In this document: piece after piece, positions 3,542-21,513 of the stretch
Position numbering within the stretch: the first letter of the stretch is position 1
Layout of the letters: each line of letters begins with the position of its first letter
Source of the DNA: a virus
Length of the DNA: 21,587 nucleotides
Reading direction: 5' to 3' (one strand)
IMG/VR virus record: IMGVR_UViG_3300044675_007475
Span: 1 to 21,587 of that record
The notes under the pieces: generated by a model
Seen by the model: only the letters and a program-made list of their open reading frames with translations
What the model was told of the DNA's origin: nothing
Databases searched by the model: none
Position numbers and translations under genes: made by a program

Positions 3542-4357
3542 TTGATTGCTGCGCTCGCTGACAAATACAAAAAGGTAGGCTACGGCCGCCAGCTGATTTT
3601 CAACGATTCAAGCCTTATCCGGAGACTTAGCGTCCACTTACAGCACGCCACACCTAGAGACCTCGAAGTCGTTGTCATGCAACCTGCAAGCAACAACACC
3701 AGAGCGCTGTACTGTGGGCGCTTTGTCTCAATCTACCGCTCTCTTATCGAGCTGGAGATGCTACCTAACTACAACCCTGCGCTAAAACTGCCCAAAATCA
3801 GGAAACGTCGCACACAGCCGCGCCCGTTGACACATGCCGAGGCTTCTGTCCTCATAACCCAAGCGAACCTGCCCCAGCGCCACTGGTTCATGCTGTCTTG
3901 CTTCGCTGGTCTGCGTGCCGGTGAAATCTCACAGGTCCGAGGTGTGGACCTTGAGGAAAGCAACGACGGTCACATGCTTCGTGTCCCTTATGGCAAAGGC
4001 GGCACCGACCTGGTTGTCCCAGCCCACCCGATGATTGTTGAGATGATACAATCGTACAAAACACTTGACCGCCTCTGGCCGACCATGAAGGCGCATAGCC
4101 TCTCGGTCGCAGCCTGCAAAGAGATGCGCCGACTCGGAGTCAAAAAGAAACTCCACTCCGGCCGACATTACTTCGCCACAAGCGCCTACGCCGCTTCAAA
4201 TGGCGACCTGCTAGCAGTATCCAAGTTAATGCGCCACGCAAGTGTCGCAACAACACAAATCTACGCCGAACTCGGGTCACAGGTAGCCCGTTCGCTAGTT
4301 AACAGCCTTCCACTACCTGATTTACCAAAGGAACAAAATGAGCCTCAAAACACTTAA
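3542..4357 (+). CDS. int: Tyrosine integrase / site-specific recombinase
   Basis: The 271-residue protein has the catalytic set of tyrosine recombinases: Arg125 in LRAGEIS, Lys152 in GKGG, His205 and Arg208 in HSGRHYFAT, His232 in MRHASVATT and the nucleophile Tyr241 in IYAELG. Residues 1-85 form a short core-binding domain; there is no obvious separate arm-binding domain, so it is small for a phage integrase and closer in size to XerC/D types. It would integrate the phage into the host chromosome, which implies a temperate lifestyle. The first conventional start is TTG at 3542 with a poor ribosome binding site, and the open frame runs 21 codons further upstream with protein-like sequence, so the start is uncertain. 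It overlaps the next gene by 20 bases. Confidence 0.87.
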   Translation: MIAALADKYKKVGYGRQLIFNDSSLIRRLSVHLQHATPRDLEVVVMQPASNNTRALYCGRFVSIYRSLIELEMLPNYNPALKLPKIRKRRTQPRPLTHAEASVLITQANLPQRHWFMLSCFAGLRAGEISQVRGVDLEESNDGHMLRVPYGKGGTDLVVPAHPMIVEMIQSYKTLDRLWPTMKAHSLSVAACKEMRRLGVKKKLHSGRHYFATSAYAASNGDLLAVSKLMRHASVATTQIYAELGSQVARSLVNSLPLPDLPKEQNEPQNT

Positions 4358-6631: not shown

Positions 6632-6891
6632 TGGTGAGCCTGCGCGAAGCTTTAGAGACAGAGAAAGACAACGGCCCCTCAATTAGGCAATGCACAATCG
6701 GCACCTACATCAGAACCTTAGACCCAGACGACCGTGCAGCAATGGTCCAAGCACTGAATGACAAAACAATCAGCTCCGTGGCCATCGTGCGTGCAGTCAG
6801 CGCCACCGGCTCCAAACTCAGCGCCGAAGTCCTAGCTCGCCACAGACGCAGACTCTGCAAATGTGGAGAGGATGTGTGGCGTGTCTCTTAA
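6631..6891 (+). CDS. Small predicted DNA-binding protein
   Basis: An 86-residue protein made of short helices: SLREALETEK, a CTIGTYIRTLDPDDRAAM segment, then KTISSVAIVRAVSATGSKLS and VLARHRRRLCKCGE. The last part reads as a helix-turn-helix with a recognition helix followed by a basic RHRRR patch and a CKCGE knuckle, like small actinophage proteins that choose DNA sites. I know this general type but not its precise function. It overlaps the following gene by about 11 bases and is probably co-transcribed with it. Confidence 0.6.
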   Translation: MVSLREALETEKDNGPSIRQCTIGTYIRTLDPDDRAAMVQALNDKTISSVAIVRAVSATGSKLSAEVLARHRRRLCKCGEDVWRVS

Positions 6892-7252
6892 TGACGAACT
6901 CAACAAAGCCAAAAGCGAACAAGCCAACGGCTCAATCTACGTTCTCACCAATCCAGCTATGCCGGGCATTGTCAAGATTGGTTTTACCACCGGCGAAGTC
7001 GAAACACGCATGGCCGAACTGGACCGCACCTCGACTCCTGCTCCTTTTGTCTGCTATTACGCTGGTTTTGTGGAAAACGTGGCACTCCAAGAACAACGCA
7101 TCCACGCAATCTTCGCAGACCGACGTATCAGACCACAACGCGAGTTCTTCACCGTTTCCCCTGAGCAAGCGAAAGCCGCAATCGAACTAGTCGCAATCCG
7201 CGACGTCACCCCCACCCTCCCAGAACCTGAAGACAATGTCAAACCTAACTGA
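6881..7252 (+). CDS. T5orf172 / GIY-YIG-like domain protein
   Basis: The 123-residue protein carries a T5orf172-type (MUG113) domain: GSIYVLTNPAMPGIVKIGFT for the first two strands, R-AELDRTSTPAPF, then E-RIHAIFADRRI and the REFF motif. This family belongs to the GIY-YIG nuclease superfamily and is common in phages, where it may act as a small endonuclease or DNA-binding module. Start choice: GTG 6881 has GGAGAGG nine bases upstream; ATG 6872 and GTG 6863 are in frame but have no properly spaced ribosome binding site. The gene overlaps the glycosyltransferase by 17 bases. Confidence 0.75.
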   Translation: MSLNDELNKAKSEQANGSIYVLTNPAMPGIVKIGFTTGEVETRMAELDRTSTPAPFVCYYAGFVENVALQEQRIHAIFADRRIRPQREFFTVSPEQAKAAIELVAIRDVTPTLPEPEDNVKPN

Positions 7253-7841
7253 TATCACAGTCATCACCGCCACCATACCTGGCCGCGACCTACTGCTGCA
7301 GAGAGCCGTCAACTCGGTCAAAGCCCAGACCTTGCAACCGGACAGACACGCTATTATGTTAGACCAGCACAAAGCCGGCCATGCGGCGATTCTTGACCTG
7401 CTGCTCGCCGAGGTCACCACCAAATACGTGGCGATACTGGATGACGATGACGAGCTTCTACCCAACCACCTTGAACTTTGCTACAACAAAATCACCGAGA
7501 CCGGTGCCGACCTGGTCTACCCAGGTTTCAAATACTCTTCAACCCACGACCAAGGGCACCTCGAATGCCACTTCGGTGTCGAATGGGACAACAACCACCC
7601 ACACCAGACAGCTATCACCACGCTGGCCAAAACCGACACAATCCGAGAAGTCGGCGGTTTCTCAGTCGACTGGGACCCTGACAGTTTTAACGTGGACAGC
7701 ACCGGCAACCGACTCGGATTTGACTACCTACTTATCCTCCGCCTCGTTGAAGCTGGCAAAATCATCAAACACGTACCTGAGCGGACCTGGATTTACCACA
7801 TCGGACACCCGTCAACCCTCGGCATGCCAAGCCGCGCATGA
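7236..7841 (+). CDS. GT-A fold glycosyltransferase (family 2-like)
   Basis: A 201-residue single-domain glycosyltransferase. The N-terminus (DITVITATIPGRDLLLQRAVNSV) is the nucleotide-sugar-binding start of family 2 enzymes, and DDDDE at residues 69-73 (after YVAIL) supplies the metal-binding DxD motif. VGGFSVDWDPDSF and the later GFDYLLILRLVEAGK segment correspond to the acceptor side (the ED/DxR region). It would transfer a sugar from a nucleotide donor to an unknown acceptor in the cytoplasm; there is no transmembrane segment. It forms a tightly overlapped trio with another glycosyltransferase and a methyltransferase, suggesting joint work on one glycan or on a virion protein. Confidence 0.8.
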   Translation: MSNLTDITVITATIPGRDLLLQRAVNSVKAQTLQPDRHAIMLDQHKAGHAAILDLLLAEVTTKYVAILDDDDELLPNHLELCYNKITETGADLVYPGFKYSSTHDQGHLECHFGVEWDNNHPHQTAITTLAKTDTIREVGGFSVDWDPDSFNVDSTGNRLGFDYLLILRLVEAGKIIKHVPERTWIYHIGHPSTLGMPSRA

Positions 7842-8452
7842 GCGTCACCATCATCACCGCCCTCTACGGCGACGACTACGACCGTTACCTCGAAGGCTGG
7901 GAACAAGCTATCAAAGCCCTCAACCCCAAACCCGACGCTGTCCTTATCGGCACAGACCGCGGCCGCTACACCGAACTGCCCACCGTCATCGCAGCACCGA
8001 CACAGCGCTGGCGCAGCCCTTTCTACTGGAACCTCTGCGCCCAACAAGCCACCACCGACTGGGTCTGGGTCCTCGACATCGACGACCGGTTTAAACCCGA
8101 CGCCATGACAATCTTGAAAGACCGCGACTGCGACATCGTCCAAGTTGGCTACCAAGAACAAGACACCGGCACCGTGTACCTCCCACCTCACCTCACCAAC
8201 GACGAAATCACCAGTCGCACAGACTGCTATTTCGTTTGCGGCTCACCAATCAGACGCGAATGGTTGCTCGCCAACCCCTACCCCGACACCGCATACACCG
8301 ATTGGGCACAATGGCGCCAATCAGCCAGACGTGGAGCCCGGTTCGAGTTCGCAGACCGACCAGCTTACGACTACCGCAAAGACTTCGCCAACAGCATGTC
8401 AGGCTGGGCCGACATCGATTTCAGGAACAAAGAAGAGGCCCTCGCATTTTGA
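7838..8452 (+). CDS. Second GT-A-like glycosyltransferase
   Basis: A 204-residue protein starting at ATG that overlaps the previous stop by four bases (ATGA). The beginning, MSVTIITALYGDDYDRYLEGW, and the WVWVLDIDDRF segment with DIDD at residues 80-83 match the GT-A layout, with SPFYWNLCAQQATTDW just before as in family 2 enzymes. The second half is rich in Trp and Tyr (TDWAQWRQSARRGARF) and is less like typical family members. It probably adds a second, different sugar. The two enzymes share their layout but are not close copies of each other. Confidence 0.68.
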   Translation: MSVTIITALYGDDYDRYLEGWEQAIKALNPKPDAVLIGTDRGRYTELPTVIAAPTQRWRSPFYWNLCAQQATTDWVWVLDIDDRFKPDAMTILKDRDCDIVQVGYQEQDTGTVYLPPHLTNDEITSRTDCYFVCGSPIRREWLLANPYPDTAYTDWAQWRQSARRGARFEFADRPAYDYRKDFANSMSGWADIDFRNKEEALAF

Positions 8453-9057
8453 CCCTCGACCAGTTCATCGCCACCTACTGCCTCGGCTCACCCAACCTAG
8501 ACGGCACCGCCAACATCACCGGCTGGGGCTCAAACAGCCCGGCCCTTGACTACGTTGTCAACCAAACCAAACCCACAACCATCATCGAAGTGGGCTCCTG
8601 GGTCGGCGCCTCAGCAATCCACATGGCCACCGTCGCACAGAACCCAGACCTTCGCATCCTCTGCGTCGACACCTTCATCGGCAGCAACGCCGCCCTCTGG
8701 GAAGAACGCAAAACCACCGCCACCCTTGACATGCCCCAGCTAATCCAGTTCTATGTCAACATCACCAACCAGAACCTTAACGACCAAATCGCAGCCTTCC
8801 CCACCACATCATCGGCAGCGGCAGAGCTTCTCGCACAGAACGGCGTCCAAGCAGACATCTGCTACATCGACGCCGGCCACCGTGAACGCGACGTCTACGC
8901 CGACCTCCAAGACTATTGGCCACTGACCAAAAAAGTCCTAATCGGTGACGATTTCAGCCAGCGATGGCCCGGTGTTATCGCGGCCGCTGAGCGTTTCGCA
9001 CATGAACAACACCTCGACCTGCAAGTCATGGACGAGAAGTTCATCCTCTGGCGCTAG
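8449..9057 (+). CDS. Class I SAM-dependent methyltransferase (Methyltransf_24-like)
   Basis: Starts at TTG 8449, overlapping the previous stop (TTGA); longer upstream open frame is the shadow of the glycosyltransferase. The 202-residue protein contains motif I IIEVGSWVGASA (residues 45-56), an acidic LCVDTF strand end at about 71-76, and CYIDAGHRERDVYADLQDYW (about 134-153) followed by VLIGDDF. This order is typical of the Methyltransf_24/TylF-like group that methylates sugars or small molecules. With two glycosyltransferases in front, O-methylation of a transferred sugar is the simplest role. It is not a DNA methyltransferase: no DPPY or PCQ motif is present. Confidence 0.77.
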   Translation: MTLDQFIATYCLGSPNLDGTANITGWGSNSPALDYVVNQTKPTTIIEVGSWVGASAIHMATVAQNPDLRILCVDTFIGSNAALWEERKTTATLDMPQLIQFYVNITNQNLNDQIAAFPTTSSAAAELLAQNGVQADICYIDAGHRERDVYADLQDYWPLTKKVLIGDDFSQRWPGVIAAAERFAHEQHLDLQVMDEKFILWR

Positions 9058-9100: not shown

Positions 9101-9313
9101 ATGACATTGGAAGAGTTTGCAAGCCGCGCCGACTGTCACCTATCGACCGCGAGCCGTTTACGTTCAGGCGAACGTTTGCCCAGCCTTTCTCTCTTGGCTC
9201 GGATTGGCCGCGAGTTTGAGCTCCCACTTAACGAGCTGATAATGAACTACGAGCGAGGACGTCCTGCGTTTGCCGAATACCTGCGCACCAATGTTTTTGA
9301 CCAGCCGGCCTGA
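9101..9313 (+). CDS. Small XRE/Cro-type helix-turn-helix regulator
   Basis: The 70-residue protein is a compact helix-turn-helix domain: LEEFASRADCHLSTASRLRSG forms helices 1-3 with the recognition helix at STASRLRSGER, then LPSLSLLARIGREFELPLNEL, the usual XRE tail. It is the size of Cro-like proteins, with no dimerisation or cleavage domain, so it is not a typical full-length CI. Its stop overlaps the purB ATG by one base (TGATG), so it is translationally coupled to purB. It may repress its own promoter or the early genes; the target is unknown. Confidence 0.72.
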   Translation: MTLEEFASRADCHLSTASRLRSGERLPSLSLLARIGREFELPLNELIMNYERGRPAFAEYLRTNVFDQPA

Positions 9314-10578
9314 TGCGTTACACTACCAGCGCAATGACCGAAATCTGGTCAGATGAAAACAGAACCCGCCTCTGGTGCGAAATCGAATGCCTAGTCCTCG
9401 AAGCCCAAGCAGCCCTCGGCGAAATCCCAGCCGCATGGGGACAGCAAGCCCGTAAAACACCACCACCGACACAGCGCCAAATCGCCGCCCTTGAACTTAC
9501 CAGCAAACACGAAGTCATCGCCTTCCTCGACGCCTGGAACTTAGACCACGCCCACATCGGCATGACCTCCTCCGACCTGGTCGACACAGCCCTGCACTAC
9601 CGCCTGATGCAAACCAGCCAGCACCTACTTGAAGCCTCAGCCGAATGGGTTCGCACCCTGGCCAAGTTCTCAGTCGAACACAAAGCCACCTACCGCGTCG
9701 GGCGCACCCACGGCCAAGACGCCACCGAAGACACCCTCGGGCACCGCTTCGCCGACTTCACCCTCATGGCAGCCAGAGCCCACAGGCGCCTGCACCAAGC
9801 CACACCAGACATCGCAACCTGCAAAATATCCGGCGCAACCGGCACCTACTCAGACATCTCACCAGAAGTCGAAGCCTACGTCGGGCGCAAACTGCACCTC
9901 ACACCAGCCCAATCAGCCACCCAAATCATCGCCCGCGACAGCCTTGTCGCTTGGGCCTCAGCTGTCGCCAATCTGGTCGACATCATCGCAGCAGTCGCAC
10001 TCGAAATCCGACTGATGTCACACTCAGCAATCGCTGAAACAACACCACCAAAAACCAAAGGGCAAAAAGGCTCCAGCGCTATGCCTCACAAAACCAACCC
10101 AATCCTGGCCGAGCAACTCACCGGCCTTGCCCGACTGACCCGTGCTTGCGTCGACCCGATAGCAGACGGTGTCTACCAATGGCACGAACGCGACCTCGCC
10201 CACTCGAGCGTCGAACGTATCGCTGTCCCTCAACTTTCGTCTATCGCGCATTACGCCCTACTCCGTGGCGTTTACCTGGTTGAGACACTCCAACCTAACC
10301 AGTTAGGAATGCGCGAGCGCCTCTTGGAGTCGCGTGGTCTTCTGGCGAGCCACCGACTCCTAGCTGCGTTGCAGAAGAACGGCACGGCACGCAAAGTCGC
10401 CCACGACATGGTCGAAGAAGTCTGCGCAGCGGTGCGAAGCGGCCGCAAACAAAGCCTGCTCCAAGCAATGAACGGCTCAGTCCTACCGGACACCTGGGCC
10501 GACGAAGCTATCCACCTGGACCCGCTCTGGGTGACCATGGAACTGCACACCACTTTCGGGCTTCCAACCCAAGACTGA
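9313..10578 (+). CDS. purB: Adenylosuccinate lyase (PurB), phage-encoded
   Basis: A full-length 421-residue PurB of the fumarase/aspartase superfamily. Expected catalytic residues are present: His66 (KHEVIAF), His81 (HIGMTSSD), His133 (GRTHGQ), the mobile signature loop KGSSAMPHKTNPI at 252-264 with catalytic Ser and Lys260, and WHERDLAHSSVER at 290-302. The N-terminus (MRYTTSAMTEIWSDENR) aligns with the start of bacterial PurB, supporting this ATG. PurB removes fumarate from adenylosuccinate to give AMP and from SAICAR to give AICAR; in Z-DNA pathways it also converts the succinyl-dGMP made by PurZ to dZMP. With a purZ gene 7 kb downstream in the same genome, that third use is the likely reason for its presence. 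A role as a general purine-synthesis booster is the alternative. Confidence 0.92.
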   Translation: MRYTTSAMTEIWSDENRTRLWCEIECLVLEAQAALGEIPAAWGQQARKTPPPTQRQIAALELTSKHEVIAFLDAWNLDHAHIGMTSSDLVDTALHYRLMQTSQHLLEASAEWVRTLAKFSVEHKATYRVGRTHGQDATEDTLGHRFADFTLMAARAHRRLHQATPDIATCKISGATGTYSDISPEVEAYVGRKLHLTPAQSATQIIARDSLVAWASAVANLVDIIAAVALEIRLMSHSAIAETTPPKTKGQKGSSAMPHKTNPILAEQLTGLARLTRACVDPIADGVYQWHERDLAHSSVERIAVPQLSSIAHYALLRGVYLVETLQPNQLGMRERLLESRGLLASHRLLAALQKNGTARKVAHDMVEEVCAAVRSGRKQSLLQAMNGSVLPDTWADEAIHLDPLWVTMELHTTFGLPTQD

Positions 10579-10943: not shown

Positions 10944-11134
10944 AGCACGCCCACAAAGACTTCACAATGCTAGACCTCGAAATCATCACCGACGCCTTAA
11001 TCGGCCTACAAATGGAACTCAAAGACAACCCCCGGCTGCAACGCGACTACGCCGAACGCTGGGGCGTTGAAGACGCAGAACTGCGCGTCATCTCAGCACG
11101 ACGCCTGCTCACCAAACTGATTGGAAGCCGATGA
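10940..11134 (+). CDS. Small helical protein (unknown)
   Basis: A 64-residue, mostly helical protein (DFTMLDLEIITDALIGLQME, then AERWGVEDAELRVISARRLLTKL). Both ends overlap neighbours by four bases (ATGA), so it belongs to the same coupled early group that leads into the stand-alone prim-pol. No domain is recognised; size and amphipathic helices would fit a helper of the replication proteins. Confidence 0.6.
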   Translation: MKHAHKDFTMLDLEIITDALIGLQMELKDNPRLQRDYAERWGVEDAELRVISARRLLTKLIGSR

Positions 11135-11646
11135 ACCGCGAAGAGCAAATCCAAGCCTACATCGACCTGGGCTGGCACCTGCTGCCCGTCCAGGCCAAAG
11201 GCAAACGACCAGCCACCAAACTGGTCCCACACGGCCACCTCGACGCCACAAACGACGAAGCCACAATCTGGTCATGGTTCGAACACAACCCCGACCTAAA
11301 CATCGGCATCGCCTGCGAAGCCTCCGGCCTGCTGGTCGTTGACTTCGACTTTGACAGCATGGACGAAGAAGCCGAGCTGCTCTACGGCCAAATGGACCTG
11401 TTGCACTACGACGACACCCTCAGCGTCCACACTGGCAAAGGCATCCACTACTATTTCGAAGCACCAATGGGCCTCACCCCACCAGGGAAGCTCGCTGACG
11501 GCATCGACATCAAATACAAGGGCTACGTCGTGGCACCGCCAAGCATCCACGCCAACGGCAAAGCCTACGAAATCGCCAAAGACACCGAACCTGCCTGGGT
11601 TGGCAGCCTCGGCTACGATTGGGTAAAACATGGGCTCCTGGTTTAG
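11131..11646 (+). CDS. Stand-alone prim-pol domain protein (bifunctional DNA primase/polymerase type)
   Basis: The 171-residue protein is a bare prim-pol catalytic domain (family of PF09250). Visible elements in order: IDLGWHLLPVQAKGKRPATK at the N-terminus, LNIGIACEASGLLVVDFDF where DFDF gives the metal-binding D-x-D, TGKGIHYYFEAP with the conserved His, and DIKYKGYVVAPPSIHANGKAYE, the closing nucleotide-binding strand. Such domains make primers and can extend DNA. No helicase follows, in contrast to the second prim-pol gene at 15247, so this genome has two. It overlaps the next gene by 17 bases. It is a candidate for the DNA polymerase activity that is otherwise missing from the window. Confidence 0.82.
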   Translation: MNREEQIQAYIDLGWHLLPVQAKGKRPATKLVPHGHLDATNDEATIWSWFEHNPDLNIGIACEASGLLVVDFDFDSMDEEAELLYGQMDLLHYDDTLSVHTGKGIHYYFEAPMGLTPPGKLADGIDIKYKGYVVAPPSIHANGKAYEIAKDTEPAWVGSLGYDWVKHGLLV

Positions 11647-13541: not shown

Positions 13542-13900
13542 CAGCATCTAAACGCAAAGGCACCGCGGCCGAAACTGCGCTCGTCAAATACCTGCGAGAG
13601 AAGGGCTTCGGACAGGCCGAACGTCGCGCTCTCGCAGGGAACCACGACAAAGGCGACATCGCCGGCGCCGGCAACCTAACCTGGGAAGTCAAAAACCAAG
13701 GCACCTACAAACTAGCCGAATGGCTCACAGAGTTGCAGATAGAGAAACAAAACAACGGCACCGACCACGGCGTCGTAATCGCAAAACCTAGAGGTGTCGG
13801 ACTCGACAGCGTAGAACAATGGTACGCTATCCTTCCGGCCAAAGATTTCATCGAGCTTGCGAGAGACGCCGGCCACGGAGACGAAAGGACCACTGCGTGA
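13538..13900 (+). CDS. Holliday junction resolvase (Hjc-like, PD-(D/E)xK)
   Basis: ATG 13538 at the ATGA overlap is the likely start; the longer frame beginning at 13472 would run through the micro-protein gene. The 120-residue protein matches archaeal-type Hjc resolvases: KRKGTAAETALVKYLREKGF with Glu12, NHDKGD with Asp40, and WEVKN with Glu50 and Lys52 as the nuclease core, then LAEWLTELQIEKQ and VVIAKPRG. It would cut branched DNA formed during replication and recombination before packaging. It sits directly before a RecB/Cas4-like nuclease with a GTGA overlap, forming a recombination pair. Confidence 0.83.
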   Translation: MTASKRKGTAAETALVKYLREKGFGQAERRALAGNHDKGDIAGAGNLTWEVKNQGTYKLAEWLTELQIEKQNNGTDHGVVIAKPRGVGLDSVEQWYAILPAKDFIELARDAGHGDERTTA

Positions 13901-14670
13901 GTCCATCAATACAAACCAAAAGCATATCGGGCAACCGCCACTACGTGCACCCAAAGACCAACGAGCAAGTCCCAAGCGTCACCACAATCCTGGGCGTCGT
14001 AAACAAACCAGCACTGCCACGCTGGGCTGCCAAAATGACCGCCGAATACGCCGTCAACAACAAAAACACCTGGGCCAACCTGGATGATAAAGCCGCCACC
14101 GAGCTGCTCAAAGGCTCACCATGGCGCTCAATGAACGACGCCGCCGAGAAAGGCACCAGCATCCACGCCATCGCCGAGAAACTCCTACGCGGCGAGCAAA
14201 TCGACTTCATCCAACCAGGCACCGAACACGCCTGCCAATCAGTCGCCGAGTTTATCCAAGCCCTGCAACCAAAACCAGTCGCAATCGAAGCCACAGTCTG
14301 GTCACACAAATATAAATACGCAGGCACCCTCGACCTAATCGCCACCATAGACGACGAACTTTGGCTCATCGACTGGAAAAGCAGCAAAGGCGTCTACCCA
14401 GATTTCGCACTCCAACTCGCCGCCTACGCAATGGCAGACGAAATCATCTACCCAGACGGCACCTCAACACCGATGCCAGAAATCAACAACGCAGCAATCG
14501 CCCACGTCCCAAAACAAGAGAACTGGGCCTTCGTACCGTTAAACATAGGCGAGCCTGCACGCCAAGCATTCCTGCACGCACTAGGACTATTCGAATGGCA
14601 ATCAATCCATGCGAATAACGCGGTCGGTGCCAACCTAAGCACCAGCCCAGCAACAGCAAAAACCAACTAA
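13897..14670 (+). CDS. RecB/Cas4-like PD-(D/E)xK exonuclease
   Basis: GTG 13897 (GTGA overlap) is preferred over an upstream in-frame ATG lying inside the resolvase gene. The 257-residue protein contains VTTILGVVNKPAL near the N-terminus, WRSMNDAAEKGTSIHAIAEK with the family's conserved His, GTLDLIA with Asp146, LIDWKSSKG with Asp159 and Lys161, and QLAAYA (Gln173, Tyr177), which together are the RecB-type nuclease motifs. Phage members process DNA ends for recombination. It stands with the resolvase upstream and a gene of unknown replication-related role downstream. Confidence 0.82.
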   Translation: MSPSIQTKSISGNRHYVHPKTNEQVPSVTTILGVVNKPALPRWAAKMTAEYAVNNKNTWANLDDKAATELLKGSPWRSMNDAAEKGTSIHAIAEKLLRGEQIDFIQPGTEHACQSVAEFIQALQPKPVAIEATVWSHKYKYAGTLDLIATIDDELWLIDWKSSKGVYPDFALQLAAYAMADEIIYPDGTSTPMPEINNAAIAHVPKQENWAFVPLNIGEPARQAFLHALGLFEWQSIHANNAVGANLSTSPATAKTN

Positions 14671-15246: not shown

Positions 15247-17496
15247 TTGAACCCAAACCTGCGCACCTTAATCGCGGCCGCGAAAGAATGGCACGACGCT
15301 GGTTTCTGCGTACTACCAGCAGCCGCCGACGGCACCAAACGACCAGCCACATCCTGGCGCGAATACATCAACGGCGACAAACAACGCCCAACCCTCGAAC
15401 AACTTAACGACATGCTCGCCACCGGGAACTTCGACGGCATTGGCGTCATCGCAGGAGTCGCCTCCGGCAACCTCGAAATGATAGAGCTGGAAGGCCCCTT
15501 CGAACAAGCCTGCGAAGCCCTCGAATCACTCGAACGCGACGCCCAAACCTTCGGTATCAAACCACTGCTCGACGACATCATCCGAGGCAACAGCGAAATC
15601 ACACCAACCGGCGGCATCCACTTCTTCTACCGCGTCACAGACGGCATCCTCAACGGCAACACCAAACTCGCCCAGAAAATAGAAGGCGACGCTATCAAAG
15701 TGATAGCAGAAACCAGAGGCCAAGGCGGCTGGGTCGTAGTCCAACCAAGCAGCGGCAAAACACACCCAAGCGGCCGCGCCTACCGAGCCCTCGACGGCTC
15801 ACCAGCCACCACACCACAAATCGCAGCCAACGACCGCGACGAACTCTACCGGCTTTTCAAAACACTCGACCAGACCGTCATCATCAGCGAACCCGAGTTC
15901 AAACAACCAACAGCACCACGCGAAGGCCTCTCACCGGGCGACGACTACAACCAACGCGCCACCTGGACCGAAATCCTCGCACCAGCCGGCTGGAAATCAC
16001 TCGGCCACAGCACACGCCAAGGACACCCAATCGAATACTGGCGCAGACCAGGCAAAGACGAAGGCATCAGCGCCACCACCGGCGGCCCAGGCAACCACCT
16101 CTACGTATTTTCAACCAGCACCAACCTCCCAGCCGAACAAGCCCTCAGCAAGTTCGCCGTCTACACCCACCTCACAGCATCCGGCGACTTCAGCAAAGCA
16201 GCCAAACAACTCCACAAAGACGGCTTCGGCAAACTCAACGAACCCACCGAGACCTTCACACAAATCGAAGACACCAAACCCTTCGCCTTCACCGACCTCA
16301 GCTGGATACTCACCGGCAACCCACCAGAAGTCGAACCACCAAGCTGGGGCAAACGGCGCGACGGCCTAAGCCTCTTCTACAACGCCAGAATCAACGGCAT
16401 CTACGGCGACCCCGAAACCGCAAAAAGCTGGCTCGCAATGTGCACAATCGCAGAAGCCCTCTACGAAGGTTCCAAATGCGTCTACCTCGACGCCGACCAC
16501 AACGGCCCCACCGAAATCACCAGCCGCTTCATGCTCCTCGGCGTAGACCGCAAACACCTCGCCAACCCAGACCTCTTCCGACTCTACGAACCAGACAGCA
16601 CCACCGAACTAGGCCTCTTCGTCCAAGAGATGCTCGACTGGACACCACAGCTCGCAGTCATCGACTCAATCGGCGAAATCCTCCCGATGCTAGGGCTCAG
16701 CTCAGTCGACAACGACGACATCACCAACGCCATACGAAAGTTCCTCAAACCAATCGCCCACAAAGCCGGCGCCTGCGTCATCACAATCGACCACCTACCC
16801 AAAGACAGCGAAGCCAGAAACAGCGGCTACGCAATCGGAGGAACAGCCAAAAAACGAGCAATCGACGGCGTCTACCTATCAGCCAGCGTCAAACACTCAG
16901 TCGCACCAGGCAGAGTCGGACGGGTTATCCTCAAAGTCGAGAAAGACCGAGCAGGCAAAGTCCGAGAACACAGCCCAGCCAACCACGCAGGAATCTTCGT
17001 CCTCGACTCCACCAACCCACAAAGAATCGACTGGCACATCGAACCAGAAGAAGCAGCAGCAGACGGCGGCATCATGCCAACCAACCTCATGGAACGAGTC
17101 AGCCAGTTCCTCGAAGAATGGACCGCAGAGAAACCACCAAGCATGAACAAAATACAAAGAAGCATCAAAGGCAACGACAGAGGAATAGCCCGAGCAGTCG
17201 AAATGCTACTAGCTGAAAAAAACATCATAGAAGAAAGACACGGCCAAGCACGCCTCTTTAAACTCGTCAAACCCTACCGACAAAAAGGAAACGACACCAA
17301 CCTCAGTCACTTCAGCCAACCTCAGCCCACCCTCAGCCTAGACATGGTCACAAACACTTCAGCCACTTCAGCCACCTCCCCCGTTTTACGGGGAGAGGCT
17401 GAGGTTGCGAACCCAATCAACTGCTCCATTTGTGGAGAGCGCATGGCTGAGGTTCTTATTTTAAACAACGAAACAAAACACTGGGGCTGCGGATGA
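15247..17496 (+). CDS. Prim-pol / helicase fusion (replicative primase-helicase)
   Basis: A 749-residue protein. Residues 1-190 form a prim-pol domain: AAKEWHDAGFCVLPAAADG, GIGVIAGVASGNLEMIELEG (E-L-E in the metal position), TPTGGIHFFYRV and GGWVVVQPSSGKTHPSG. Residues about 370-600 form a RecA/RepA-like ATPase: a Walker A-like YGDPETAKSW (near 386), YLDADHNG, a Walker B LAVIDSIGEILPML (near 468) and VITIDHLPKDSE. The C-terminal 150 residues include a winged-helix-like part and a final zinc pair CSICGERM. It should open and prime phage DNA. TTG 15247 is the first start after an in-frame stop and is needed to include the first prim-pol helix. It overlaps the next gene by four bases. Confidence 0.85.
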   Translation: MNPNLRTLIAAAKEWHDAGFCVLPAAADGTKRPATSWREYINGDKQRPTLEQLNDMLATGNFDGIGVIAGVASGNLEMIELEGPFEQACEALESLERDAQTFGIKPLLDDIIRGNSEITPTGGIHFFYRVTDGILNGNTKLAQKIEGDAIKVIAETRGQGGWVVVQPSSGKTHPSGRAYRALDGSPATTPQIAANDRDELYRLFKTLDQTVIISEPEFKQPTAPREGLSPGDDYNQRATWTEILAPAGWKSLGHSTRQGHPIEYWRRPGKDEGISATTGGPGNHLYVFSTSTNLPAEQALSKFAVYTHLTASGDFSKAAKQLHKDGFGKLNEPTETFTQIEDTKPFAFTDLSWILTGNPPEVEPPSWGKRRDGLSLFYNARINGIYGDPETAKSWLAMCTIAEALYEGSKCVYLDADHNGPTEITSRFMLLGVDRKHLANPDLFRLYEPDSTTELGLFVQEMLDWTPQLAVIDSIGEILPMLGLSSVDNDDITNAIRKFLKPIAHKAGACVITIDHLPKDSEARNSGYAIGGTAKKRAIDGVYLSASVKHSVAPGRVGRVILKVEKDRAGKVREHSPANHAGIFVLDSTNPQRIDWHIEPEEAAADGGIMPTNLMERVSQFLEEWTAEKPPSMNKIQRSIKGNDRGIARAVEMLLAEKNIIEERHGQARLFKLVKPYRQKGNDTNLSHFSQPQPTLSLDMVTNTSATSATSPVLRGEAEVANPINCSICGERMAEVLILNNETKHWGCG

Positions 17497-17765
17497 GAAA
17501 CAAACTACGCCTCGAATACTGCCAAAACTGCAACTCACCAATCCTCACAGGCGAGACCACCAGCCGACCAAGCTGGTACGTACGACTGGACCCAAGACCA
17601 GTCGCAGCGAGAGGCCCAGGTGTGTACTCCATTTGGACAGGCCCCACAGCTTACCCTGCGGCCGCCGAAGGGAAACCGCACCTGGTCCTTCACGACTGCA
17701 AAAACCCCTGCCCTTATTTCGAACTACCGGCAACAATAAAAGAAGACTTGGCAACCACCTGGTGA
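17493..17765 (+). CDS. Small zinc-binding protein (unknown)
   Basis: A 90-residue protein starting at an ATGA overlap with the primase-helicase. It has CQNCN at the N-terminus and HDCKNPCPY near the end, four Cys that could hold a zinc ion, around a beta-like middle (SWYVRLDPRP, GVYSIWTG). It lies just before purZ and is followed by a strong GGAGAG ribosome binding site for that gene. No known family. Confidence 0.6.
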   Translation: MRNKLRLEYCQNCNSPILTGETTSRPSWYVRLDPRPVAARGPGVYSIWTGPTAYPAAAEGKPHLVLHDCKNPCPYFELPATIKEDLATTW

Positions 17766-17782: not shown

Positions 17783-18868
17783 ATGAAGATAGAAGCAGGT
17801 ACCCTCTCAGTCGTCGTGGGAGGACAGTTCGGAAGCGAAGGCAAAGGAGCCATCGCCGGCTGGTTAACCTCGGACAAAATCGAGCAACCAGAAGGCGGCG
17901 ACGTGCTTTGCATCAGAGTCGCAGGACCAAACGCCGGCCACACGGTGATGGGTCGCGGCCCAAACGGTGAGGAAGAAGGCACCTACCCATGGCGCCTTCG
18001 CAGCGTACCAGTCGCAGCAGTGACAAACGAGAACGCTATCCTTGCAATCGCAGCAGGTTCAGAGATTGACATGGAAGTTCTCACTTCAGAACTGACAGCG
18101 CTTGACGCAGCAGGCTACAACGCCACCGGTCGACTTAACATCGACGGCCAGGCCACAATGCTGACAGATGAACATAAAGAAGCAGAGTACCAAGCTGGTC
18201 TGACCGAGAAGCTCGGTTCTACCGGTAAAGGTATCGGGGCAGCCAGAGCAGCACGCATCATGCGCAAAGCGACACTCGCACACAGCGAACTAAAAGACAC
18301 GATTAACGTTGAGTCTTTAATCCGCCAAGTGCTACCAACTGGCCACGTGGTTATCGAAGGCACACAGGGCTACGGCTTAGGGCTACATGCAGGGCACTAC
18401 CCTCAATGCACCTCAAGCAACACCCGTGCGATTGATTTCTGCGCAATGGCAGGCGCCCACCCACTGGGCTCTTGGACTCGCGACTTCAAAGTCTGGGTCA
18501 CGCTGCGCACGTTCCCAATCCGCGTGGCAGGCAACTCTGGACCACTAGAAGACGAGACCACCTGGGACGCTTTAGGTCTTTCACCTGAACTGACCACAGT
18601 CACCCAAAAGGTCAGACGTGTCGGGATGTTCGACTACGACTTGGCCGCAGCAGCAGTGAGAGGCAACGGCGGACCAGCTGTCTGCGACATCGCGCTGACC
18701 ATGTTCGACTACGTCTTCCCTGAATACAAACACCGCCACGGCTGGTTGTATTTTAAGAATCTTTCTGATGACGCCCAGACCTACATCAGCGAAATCGAAG
18801 ACCAAACCGGCGCCACCGTCCGTCTACTCGGCACCAGCCCAAACACCGTGCTCGAGGTGATAGCGTGA
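17783..18868 (+). CDS. purZ: PurZ: succino-2-amino-2'-deoxyadenylate synthase
   Basis: ATG 17783 (GGAGAG just upstream) begins a 361-residue protein; a longer in-frame ORF upstream is rejected as overlap with the zinc gene. It is a PurA homologue with GGQFGSEGKG at residues 13-22: PurA has Asp where this has Ser18. Loss of that Asp is the mark of PurZ, which accepts dGMP (with its 2-amino group) and joins it to aspartate. Conserved features remain: NAGHT with His53, GSTGKGIGAAR (145-155), EGTQGYGLGLHAGHYP (192-207), RTFPIRVAGNSGP (242-254) and VRRVGMFD (277-284). At 361 residues it is shorter than bacterial PurA (about 430), as PurZ proteins are. The product would be cleaved by PurB to dZMP for 2-aminoadenine DNA. 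Confidence 0.88.
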   Translation: MKIEAGTLSVVVGGQFGSEGKGAIAGWLTSDKIEQPEGGDVLCIRVAGPNAGHTVMGRGPNGEEEGTYPWRLRSVPVAAVTNENAILAIAAGSEIDMEVLTSELTALDAAGYNATGRLNIDGQATMLTDEHKEAEYQAGLTEKLGSTGKGIGAARAARIMRKATLAHSELKDTINVESLIRQVLPTGHVVIEGTQGYGLGLHAGHYPQCTSSNTRAIDFCAMAGAHPLGSWTRDFKVWVTLRTFPIRVAGNSGPLEDETTWDALGLSPELTTVTQKVRRVGMFDYDLAAAAVRGNGGPAVCDIALTMFDYVFPEYKHRHGWLYFKNLSDDAQTYISEIEDQTGATVRLLGTSPNTVLEVIA

Positions 18869-19209
18869 CCTCAAAGCCAAAAAAAGACACCTTGGCGCTC
18901 GAAGCTTGGTGGCGTGACGATACCGAGCAAGAACTAGCCGGTGTGATGCCAAAAGCAATCGAATACGGCTCAAGCGACCTAAAACTGATGGGCCAAGCGA
19001 TGTTGATGTTCATGCCACAGTGCGAACACAAAGTCGACCCAGAGGAACTGGCAATCGCTTTCTACGCCCTGGGAAAGACAGCACGCCTAATCGGCGCCTA
19101 CGTTGACGGCCGTGTCCCAAGCGAAGACACCTGGCACGACCTCGCAGTCTACGCCAAAATGGCGAAGCGCGTAAGGGCGGTGGGACAATGGCCAGGCCCA
19201 ACCGCATAA
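18865..19209 (+). CDS. MazG-like nucleotide pyrophosphohydrolase candidate (MazZ role)
   Basis: Begins at a GTGA overlap with purZ. The 114-residue protein is all helical: AIEYGSSDLKLMGQAML, then DPEELAIAFYALGKTARLIGAY and SEDTWHDLAVYAKMAKRVRA. Glu60/Glu61 on one helix and Glu87/Asp88 plus Asp92 on the next could be the acidic metal ligands of the MazG fold, where motifs are spread as E-E...E and D. In Z-DNA phages a MazG-type enzyme (MazZ) turns dGTP into dGMP, the PurZ substrate. The tight coupling to purZ and the helix pattern suggest this role. The match is remote and the standard EExxE is not exact, so the identification is moderate. It overlaps the next gene by 22 bases. Confidence 0.55.
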   Translation: MTSKPKKDTLALEAWWRDDTEQELAGVMPKAIEYGSSDLKLMGQAMLMFMPQCEHKVDPEELAIAFYALGKTARLIGAYVDGRVPSEDTWHDLAVYAKMAKRVRAVGQWPGPTA

Positions 19210-19610
19210 CCCACACGCCAATCGTCTACCTGGCTTCACCGATAGACAACGGCGTGCTCTCAGGTGTGGACAAAGTCCGGGAGTTGTTGGTGCAGGACGG
19301 CTACGCCGTTTACTGGCCTCAACAAGCTTGGCAGGTCCACCCAGGCGCTATCCCGACCGAGTCACTGCAAGCGGCCAACCTGGCTGTGCTTGACATGGCT
19401 GACGGGATGATTGCTTGTCTGAAACCGGACAAGCTGAGCGTCGGCACCGTGCTTGAAATCATCGAGGCTCGGATGAAAGACATCCCGGTCATCGTGTGGG
19501 GCCAGATGAACCACAGTTGGGCGCTTGCCTACCTGAACGTCGAGTCCTACGCTGACCTACGCGACGCAGTTCGCCGATTGGAGGAGTTAGTTAATGACAG
19601 ACTTGACTAA
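19188..19610 (+). CDS. Nucleoside 2-deoxyribosyltransferase-like protein
   Basis: A 140-residue protein of the nucleoside 2-deoxyribosyltransferase/Rcl (DNPH1) group: IVYLASPID near residues 12-20, a VYWPQQAW strand, NLAVLDMADGMIAC at 64-77, and SVGTVLEI at 84-91 with the candidate catalytic Glu90. Members swap bases between deoxynucleosides or hydrolyse deoxynucleoside monophosphates to base and deoxyribose phosphate. In the purZ cassette it could salvage deoxyribose, or destroy unwanted dNMPs; which one cannot be told from sequence. It overlaps both neighbours (22 and 17 bases). Confidence 0.75.
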   Translation: MARPNRITHTPIVYLASPIDNGVLSGVDKVRELLVQDGYAVYWPQQAWQVHPGAIPTESLQAANLAVLDMADGMIACLKPDKLSVGTVLEIIEARMKDIPVIVWGQMNHSWALAYLNVESYADLRDAVRRLEELVNDRLD

Positions 19611-20022
19611 GGCCATGCAGTTTATTGGGAACGCCCCGACCAGGGCGTACGCCGATGACGCAGGGTTTGACCTTTACGTCGAAGGTGATTGGGCGATAGA
19701 GCCGTTCTCTTTTGTCGATGTCGACTTAAAATGTCGCATCAAGACACCAGAGGGCACTTGGGCTCTGTTGATTAGTAGGTCAAGCACTTTGCGCAAAAGA
19801 GGGCTCATGGTAGCGACTGGGGTTATCGACCCAGGCTACACCGGGCCACTTTTTGCCGGTGTCTTTAACTTGACCAAGGAGACAGTGCACGTCCCCCATG
19901 GAGACCGACTTGCTCAGTTAATTCTTTTCGACAACGTATCCGAGCGCTACACCCCTGAAGCAGTTGAAGAACTGCCAGAGACAGGGCGAGGCGCAAACGG
20001 CTTCGGGAGTTCAGGGAATTAA
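19594..20022 (+). CDS. dut: dUTPase (deoxyuridine triphosphatase)
   Basis: A 142-residue trimeric-type dUTPase. All five motifs are visible: motif 1 AYADDAGFDLY (18-28), motif 2 SRSS (61-64), motif 3 GVIDPGYTGPL (76-86) with catalytic Asp79, motif 4 PHGDRLAQLILF (101-112) and motif 5 RGANGFGSSG (132-141). It hydrolyses dUTP to dUMP, keeping uracil out of DNA and feeding dTMP synthesis. GGAGGAG at 19580-19586, seven bases before ATG, is a very strong ribosome binding site, so translation should be high. It completes the purZ nucleotide cassette. Confidence 0.93.
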   Translation: MTDLTKAMQFIGNAPTRAYADDAGFDLYVEGDWAIEPFSFVDVDLKCRIKTPEGTWALLISRSSTLRKRGLMVATGVIDPGYTGPLFAGVFNLTKETVHVPHGDRLAQLILFDNVSERYTPEAVEELPETGRGANGFGSSGN

Positions 20023-20023
20023 A

Positions 20024-20638
20024 ATGGAAACCGTCATCGCGTCAAGCTGCACAAGCTGCCACAAGTCATGCGAACCTAACTGGTTCCTATGCAGGCGTTG
20101 CCAAAAGCACCTAGCCAAACATCTTGACGCGATACCCAACCTGCACCGTTTCCTAATCAACCACCCAGAGACTCATGTCCGTGTGGCTTTAACAGAGTCA
20201 CGCCGTGGTTCATCTTTCGGCCCACCAGCACCCGTCGACTTGGACGTCCTCGGCTTGCTACACCCGAAGACCGATGCCAGGGCTGTGGCCTTGCGCTGGT
20301 TGAAAAAAGTGCAGAACCAAGCAGGCTTGGCAATCTCAGCAGGTTCAGCCCAGCAAGTTTGCCGCGGCCTTAAGCAGCAACTGCCTTGGATAGCAGAGCA
20401 TTTTGAAGAAGCCGCCCAGTTAAAGAAAGAACTGACTGCCGAGTACCAGAAGCTGGAGCGAGTTGTGCACGGCGAGCGCAAACCACCAAGGCCAGTGCCA
20501 TGCCCGGTTGTGCTACCAGAGACAGGGGCCTGCACCGGGCGTCTGTTCTTACACAAGGACGGCACTGTCAGCTGTAAAATCTGCGGCTCAGTCTGGGAAT
20601 ACGAGAATTGGGCACGCCTAGGGAGGCTCATGCAATGA
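20024..20638 (+). CDS. Double zinc-ribbon protein, possible transcription-related factor
   Basis: ATG 20024 follows the dUTPase stop by one base; a longer in-frame frame (from 19964) lies inside the dUTPase gene and is rejected. The 204-residue protein begins with an N-terminal zinc site (SCTSCHKSCEP ... FLCRRCQKHL), has a helical middle (DARAVALRWLKKVQNQAGLA, GLKQQLPWIAEHFEEA) and ends with a second ribbon in CPVVLPETGACTGRL ... VSCKICGSVW plus a short helix. Two ribbons around a helical core are common in actinophage proteins thought to bind DNA. The function is not recognised. Confidence 0.65.
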   Translation: METVIASSCTSCHKSCEPNWFLCRRCQKHLAKHLDAIPNLHRFLINHPETHVRVALTESRRGSSFGPPAPVDLDVLGLLHPKTDARAVALRWLKKVQNQAGLAISAGSAQQVCRGLKQQLPWIAEHFEEAAQLKKELTAEYQKLERVVHGERKPPRPVPCPVVLPETGACTGRLFLHKDGTVSCKICGSVWEYENWARLGRLMQ

Positions 20639-21165
20639 CAACAATCATCGGAGTTCAGACAGACCGAGGCTGTCTGCTAGCAGCAGACTCTAGGGTCACC
20701 ACAGACAAAGGCCGACCAGCCCAACACCTCTCAGTATCTAAAATCTCTAAAATCGGTCGCTATTTGGTAGCCGGTGCAGGTATGGCTCAACCCTGCGACG
20801 TTATTCAACACTGTTGGAAACCACCCTCAATCTCAAAAGCAGCCAACAAAGACCCCTTTCATTTTGCTGTCACCGAGCTGATTCCCTCTCTGCGCGAACT
20901 GCTTAACACCCACCAGGTCGCTGTTAAAAGCGAAGAAGACGGGTTCGAACTGCTTGTCGCCTTCCGGGGTCGACTGGTCGAAATCGACTCAGATTTTAAC
21001 GTCTCCATGAGAGATGACGGTATCTATGGCCTGGGCTCAGGGTCAGACTTTGCTATAGGGGCGCTGTTAGCTGGGGCAACCTGGAAACGAGCGCTCCAAA
21101 TCGCGGCCGCTAACGACGTCAACACCGGACCGCCGTTCCATGTCGTGCGTCAGATGATGGACTAG
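20635..21165 (+). CDS. Proteasome/HslV-like Ntn hydrolase
   Basis: ATG 20635 (ATGA overlap) is the start; this puts Met directly before Thr-Thr. After Met removal the N-terminal Thr1 would be the nucleophile; Asp17 in AADSRVT and a Lys at 35 (SVSKISKI) match the Thr/Asp/Lys set of proteasome beta subunits and HslV, followed by YLVAGAGMAQ as the usual Gly strand. At 176 residues it is the size of HslV. The motif YGLGSGSDFAIGALLAG late in the chain is also typical. It would be a self-compartmentalised peptidase or a related amidase, with no partner ATPase seen. It lies before an HNH nuclease, near the edge of the packaging/structural region. Confidence 0.82.
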   Translation: MTTIIGVQTDRGCLLAADSRVTTDKGRPAQHLSVSKISKIGRYLVAGAGMAQPCDVIQHCWKPPSISKAANKDPFHFAVTELIPSLRELLNTHQVAVKSEEDGFELLVAFRGRLVEIDSDFNVSMRDDGIYGLGSGSDFAIGALLAGATWKRALQIAAANDVNTGPPFHVVRQMMD

Positions 21166-21175
21166 ATACCTTGCT

Positions 21176-21186
21176 TATGGTACAAT
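21176..21186 (+). promoter_or_regulatory. Possible extended -10 promoter (TGG-TACAAT)
   Basis: TACAAT (21181-21186) with TGG directly before it fits the pattern of the other promoters in the window. The -35 is weak. Transcription would start near 21193, giving a leader of about 40 bases before the GTG of the HNH gene. It is in one of the few intergenic gaps (21166-21234) and may mark the start of a late operon. Confidence 0.42.
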
Positions 21187-21234
21187 GGAATTGTAGTCGT
21201 ACACCTATGCCTGCGTGTCGTTATAAGGCTAGTC

Positions 21235-21513
21235 GTGTTTAATAAGCCCTGCCTAGACTGTGGCCGTCTCTCAAAGTCATCCCGTTGCCCCGTTTGCCTT
21301 GCGAAATCGCGTGAACATTACAAAGGTTCATACGCTCGCCGAGCGCAGCTGGTGCGTGCTTCTGCTCAAGCTTGTTGGCTATGCCACCAAGGCTTTCGCG
21401 CTGATGACCCTTGGGTAGCCGACCATGTTTACCCGGGCGAAATCGACTCCCCGCTACTCCCGGCCCACCGGTCGTGCAACGCTGCACGTGCAAACCAAGG
21501 TCGAGGAGCTTAA
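21235..21513 (+). CDS. HNH endonuclease
   Basis: A 92-residue protein from GTG 21235 with weak AAGG upstream. It has an N-terminal zinc pair (CLDCG, CPVC), a second pair CWLCHQ, then the HNH core: ADHVYPG (first His), PAHRSCNAARANQ (His and Asn). This compact layout is typical of actinophage HNH proteins that sit next to the terminase genes and help packaging, which fits the position near the window end. It is followed by GAGGAG and a further start. Confidence 0.82.
   Translation: MFNKPCLDCGRLSKSSRCPVCLAKSREHYKGSYARRAQLVRASAQACWLCHQGFRADDPWVADHVYPGEIDSPLLPAHRSCNAARANQGRGA

Follow-up and report, generated by a model that had tools for sequence, protein, structure and literature searches.

The window, the whole stretch of DNA analysed here (21,587 nt), is a viral record that has no end repeats and is therefore probably a fragment. 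The span from 17783 to 20022 consists of exactly four overlapping, tightly packed ORFs, all on the + strand: purZ0 (17783..18868), for a predicted succino-2-amino-2′-deoxyadenylate synthetase of 361 aa; a gene for a helical partner protein of 114 aa (18865..19209); a dmtZ-like gene (19188..19610); and a dutZ-like gene (19594..20022). This cassette is conserved in about 80 loci. In L091 (8004–10868) purZ is followed by a reversed cassette and a second, partial purZ, an arrangement that is probably a palindromic assembly artefact. Downstream of dutZ, positions 20024–21513 of the window hold a gene for a phrog_1467/908-type protein, an HslV-like peptidase gene and an HNH-type gene; record G035 has proteins like these at one of its ends.

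The sequence-only reading had singled out the first ORF as a PurA-like gene with Ser18 at the position of the catalytic Asp of PurA. Codon 18 is AGC in VVVGGQFGSEGKG, in agreement with that reading, and the other motifs said to be kept (NAGHT, GSTGKGIG and VRRVGMFD) are all found. The ATG at 17783 is preceded by a Shine-Dalgarno-like stretch, aaggaaggagagaaa; a TTG further upstream, at 17633, is also in frame. With 319.8 bits the protein passes the curated cut-off (300) of the NCBIfam PurZ model NF038379, while all PurA models failed (NF003295 for purA, 216.5 versus 368; TIGR00184, 135 versus 396). Its best PDB match is 7vf6 (E-value 9e-74), the PurZ0 of Gordonia phage Archimedes (PMC12884076). 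The closest named relatives are found in the Streptomyces phages Galactica, Keanu and Hiyaa (50–54% identity), followed by Gordonia and Arthrobacter phages (about 42–45%).

A phylogeny had been proposed as a way to place the protein with PurZ or with PurA. In a maximum likelihood tree of 64 sequences the window protein falls inside the viral PurZ0 clade (support 99/98), together with the PurZ0 proteins of Archimedes, Wayne and Galactica, and phiVC8 and SH-Ab 15497 form a separate clade (100/100). The likening to the PurZ of known Z phages thus stands as far as PurZ identity goes; the branch is that of PurZ0 and not that of S-2L and phiVC8. Membership of a common family, PF00709, is what could be said for a host-derived PurA that acquired Ser by chance and still makes adenylosuccinate. 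Such an origin is extremely improbable: the PurZ cut-off was passed and every PurA cut-off failed, all viral relatives with the N-terminus present have the Ser, and the cassette partners co-occur. We consider the protein to be almost certainly a member of PurZ0.

PurZ-like proteins with Ser at the catalytic position were also seen on bacterial contigs from several phyla, where they belong to a recurring gene group: an RNase_H_2 + DUF429-like protein (often with a kinase-like AAA domain), then the PurZ-like protein, then a dCTP-deaminase-like protein and, often, a deoxynucleoside kinase. Examples are L111 7958–12715 (Mariprofundus erugo), L103 7956–11855 (Thalassolituus maritimus) and L105 7833–12111 (Granulicella); further ones are L104, L106, L107, L109, L114, L116 and, in part, L115. 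These proteins branch away from phage PurZ in the tree, PADLOC gave only weak matches at the loci, and the part of the literature covered contained nothing relevant on such an operon.

In ATP-type PurZ the residue that reads the base of the phosphate donor is Q308 in S-2L and N297 in phiVC8 (PMC8342488). The window protein has Asp309 in this column; Asp is present in 87/87 viral PurZ0 proteins that have the column and in Pyrococcus PurA, and the residue is Asn in phiVC8 and SH-Ab. Since ATP-using PurZ carries Asn or Gln at this site and the window PurZ0 carries Asp, its predicted donor is GTP, not ATP, and the assay with ATP suggested in the sequence-only reading was probably the wrong choice. 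The work of Tong et al. (2023) reportedly conflicts with the order 'ATP and GTP, respectively' for PurZ0 and PurZ. It is in this order that the preferred donors of PurZ0 and PurZ are worded in PMC12884076, whose own introduction has PurZ using ATP; we have taken the donor sentence as inverted.

The 114-aa protein encoded next to purZ0 had been labelled MazG-like. This label was dropped as unproven: neither MazG nor DUF5664 was matched in Pfam, NCBIfam, hhalign or PDB Foldseek searches, and PDB phmmer did not supply a match either. There is a weak likeness to DUF6378 (E-value 0.037, under the family cut-off), and matches to HamA and YqeY were at chance level. A viral library gave strong matches, some of them to proteins of Archimedes and Ghobes, and then weak ones, a DUF6378 protein among them; PMC12884076 makes no mention of DUF6378 or MazG. 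The AlphaFold2 model is confident (pLDDT 91) and has four helices, with no match in PDB Foldseek, and eight columns are invariant across 43 members of the family.

No other neighbour of purZ0 is as constant as this family. It is present, normally adjoining purZ, in 87 of the 88 PurZ0 loci examined, a figure that measures constancy as the loci were found through purZ; Wayne is the sole exception and has DUF5664 there instead. Specificity is measured by a search of phage records: in 50,697 of them, tblastn with two different queries from the family returned 31 records each (Microbacterium 18, Gordonia 6, Streptomyces 5, Curtobacterium 1 and Micrococcus 1), and no match in Arthrobacter. For Microbacterium, Gordonia, Streptomyces and Curtobacterium these counts equal the numbers of purZ-positive records, and the Micrococcus record is purZ-positive as well. 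Among the 50,697 records the family is confined to non-Arthrobacter PurZ0 phages, as far as tblastn, which could miss distant relatives, can detect it. The swap for DUF5664 in Wayne hints that the 114-aa partner may hydrolyse dNTPs; with a dATP/dGTP pyrophosphohydrolase gene at the partner's place in that phage, this activity is directly testable.

The remaining two genes of the cassette bear out the labels given to them earlier. The deoxyribosyltransferase-like protein (19188–19610) matches PF05014 above the cut-off (8.7e-8), and the dUTPase (19594–20022) matches PF00692 (1.5e-25). Their characterized counterparts are DmtZ (AOE44404.1) and DutZ (AOE44406.1) of Ghobes, along with the Wayne versions; DutZ converts dATP and dGTP to monophosphates, and DmtZ hydrolyses dAMP and moves deoxyribose phosphate onto the Z base (PMC12884076). 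Overall identity of the window protein to Ghobes DmtZ is 29%, and the equivalents of Y6, D12, P57, N77, E103 and W124 are all kept, the first five as Y14, D20, P44, N64 and E90. The window dUTPase shares 42% identity with Ghobes DutZ and 46% with the C-terminal domain of the Wayne protein. Judged by these similarities, the two genes most likely encode the Z-pathway enzymes DmtZ, a dAMP hydrolase and deoxyribose-phosphate transferase to the Z base, and DutZ, a dUTPase-fold diphosphatase of dATP, dGTP and dUTP. The window thereby shares the genome trait of the PurZ0 subgroup, dutZ usually accompanied by dmtZ.

Several genes outside this span, namely a purB gene, an integrase gene and two primase-polymerase genes, had been missed in the sequence-only reading. 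The first, at 9313..10578 (+ strand, 421 aa), encodes a PurB-like adenylosuccinate lyase that matches PF00206 (8e-39) and the PDB adenylosuccinate lyase 8jbd (E-value 7e-69) and has an intact GSSAMPHKTNP loop; PurB-like genes are annotated also in Galactica, Archimedes and Sapo. The conversion of dSMP to dZMP is a host step in PMC12884076; in the window phage it is probably encoded by the phage itself. Between the lysis and replication genes, at 6863–9057, lie a T5orf172-domain gene, two glycosyltransferase-like genes and a methyltransferase-like frame. The replication/recombination block includes a gene for a Cas4-like exonuclease (13819..14670, + strand; phrog_298 exonuclease, 7e-52).

The tyrosine integrase (3542..4357, + strand, 271 aa) matches PF00589 (1e-8) and keeps the recombinase motifs R, HxxR, H and Y. 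Of the 30 records tested, which include several fragments, only the window has one; a weaker match came from L102, a Verrucomicrobia-binned contig that carries the same cassette. Most relatives of the integrase come from phages of Mycobacterium, Gordonia and Arthrobacter, which points to an actinobacterial and possibly temperate phage. The closest named relatives infect Actinomycetota, which makes a host from that group plausible. An attachment site at a tRNA was considered and rejected, as no tRNA gene was found in the window. The part of the literature covered contained nothing relevant on PurZ with temperate phages or metagenomes. In phiVC8, p28 (L018 3665–5953) carries the annotation 'Integrase', which is probably wrong: that genome has no PF00589 match, and the frame matches primase-polymerase profiles.

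Directly upstream of purZ, at the place of Pol I in other PurZ0 phages, the window has a gene (15247..17496, + strand) for a 749-aa protein with a Prim-Pol-like domain (PF09250, 5e-11), in which motif I is ExE, and a RecA-like ATPase. Counting the window, 39 loci have, ≤770 nt upstream of the purZ frame, a gene whose last domain is a RecA-like ATPase, and the Prim-Pol-like domain precedes the ATPase wherever the contig reaches far enough. In the main clade this primase reads ExE at motif I and has an E in motif III as well. The related primases of L010–L012, phage loci without PurZ that were found via the primase, have the same form, and their whole records are also without Pol I. This weakens the idea of a normal S-2L-like PrimPol; judging by its motifs, the ExE primase may be an initiator or helicase rather than a polymerase. 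A second, stand-alone Prim-Pol domain of 171 aa (11131..11646, + strand; PF09250, 7e-33) has an intact canonical DFD and occurs only in the window among the records tested.

The window record contains no Pol I, Pol B or Pol III alpha: PF00476, PF07733 and PF00136 have no match in it, nor in two relatives with the primase-upstream arrangement that are taken as closed assemblies because their ends are identical (G020, 34,080 nt with 99 nt repeated; G034, 32,186 nt with 123 nt). G020 has genes for terminase, portal, major head and adaptor proteins, a full head and packaging set. In G034 the primase gene is split into two frames (L125 5044–7245), owing either to an assembly error or to a broken gene. 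None of the 39 loci with the primase-helicase gene upstream of purZ also carries Pol I, and a PF00476 search of 43 whole records gave two matches, both outside this arrangement. A second group (G040–G044 and G046; 37–43 kb, unclosed) is likewise without Pol I; every record in it carries a single Prim-Pol gene, with a canonical DxD in 4/5 group loci in which the motif was read.

PurZ0 and DpoZ-1 (DNA polymerase I) co-occur perfectly in the published set (PMC12884076). DpoZ-1, which is a correlate in that set and not part of the family definition, is missing from the window, itself a fragment. The window could thus come from an ordinary PurZ0 phage with a Wayne-like DpoZ in the missing part of its genome, only the gene order being different. 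All named PurZ0 phages tested (L020–L022 included) have Pol I, and in the tree the Pol I-bearing loci L008, L009 and L052 fall inside the window's own group, so that Pol I must have been lost or gained more than once, or swapped. Against this reading are the 39 loci with the upstream primase gene, all without Pol I, and the two end-redundant genomes of the same arrangement that lack it, one with its head and packaging genes complete. On balance we find a hidden DpoZ unlikely, and the absence of DpoZ from this phage fairly probable.

Taken together, the genes of the window likely form a cassette for dZTP synthesis of the PurZ0 type in a tailed phage. Gene identities, catalytic residues and gene order can be read from the DNA, as can the absence of polymerase families from the records examined, and they are compatible with the following route. 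DutZ, perhaps with the 114-aa partner, would convert dATP and dGTP to dAMP and dGMP; PurZ0 would join dGMP to aspartate with GTP, giving dSMP; the phage PurB would release fumarate from dSMP to give dZMP; and host kinases would raise dZMP to dZTP. DmtZ would remove dAMP and could rebuild dZMP from free Z base. Synthesis of the genome would fall to the host replicase or a primase-polymerase. With no DNA polymerase of family A, B or C in the record and the two end-redundant relatives, A would be kept out of the genome by dATP starvation, not by a Z-selective polymerase. The enzyme activities, the overall pathway, the presence of Z in the virions and the identity of the genome-copying polymerase we infer from the gene content.

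That the dZTP pathway works is very likely. Complete replacement of A by Z is about as likely as not. With no DpoZ in the record or in its two closed relatives, keeping A out would fall to pool control by itself. In sequence records Z reads as A. The cassette might instead alter the nucleotide pool or give partial Z without a full exchange of A, for instance to starve the host or to dodge some nucleases. The record's lack of a Z-selective polymerase would fit this, but the core enzymes are all intact and stay together even where the sequences have diverged widely, and the same gene set goes with Z-genome phages (PMC12884076); we regard it as unlikely. Returning to a fully Z-containing genome, it is a tentative possibility that the PurZ0 lineage makes one without a Z-selective polymerase, by means of the dNTP pool and either the host replicase or the ExE primase-polymerase. 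As the window phage carries an integrase, the same genome could conceivably be Z in virions and A in the lysogen. A Pol I-less PurZ0 clade, if true, would mean that control of the nucleotide pool can lead to a Z genome in this lineage as well, and would offer a natural test of the acceptance of dZTP by a host replicase.

Among known systems, the cassettes of Ghobes and Archimedes (Gordonia) and Galactica (Streptomyces) have, in the same order as the window, genes for PurZ0 (45–54% identical to that of the window), the 114-aa family, the NDT-like protein and the dUTPase-like protein; Archimedes and Galactica also share the annotated PurB-like gene. Unlike the window, these phages encode Pol I, and an integrase is absent from those tested. 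Arthrobacter phage Wayne resembles the window in its PurZ0, its DmtZ and DutZ functions and an upstream primase-polymerase-helicase, and differs in having DUF5664 for the 114-aa family, a fused DmtZ-DutZ, and Pol I between primase and purZ. The Z-clusters of phiVC8 and SH-Ab 15497, phages with a Z genome, share the Ser-for-Asp PurZ with the window, whereas their PurZ forms the separate clade with Asn at the donor site, their partner genes are others and Pol I is present. Closest in the polymerase question is cyanophage S-2L, which has a Ser-for-Asp PurZ and is the Z phage described without DpoZ (PMC8599892). Its specificity is attributed to dATP removal, its PrimPol was shown to polymerize, and it sets the precedent for a non-selective polymerase combined with pool control (PMC8065100, PMC8342488); unlike the window, it has an ATP-type PurZ, and DatZ and MazZ in place of DutZ, DmtZ and the 114-aa family. 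Relative to the published PurZ0 set, what appears to be new, judging by gene content, is the cassette without DpoZ in the window and its uncultured relatives.
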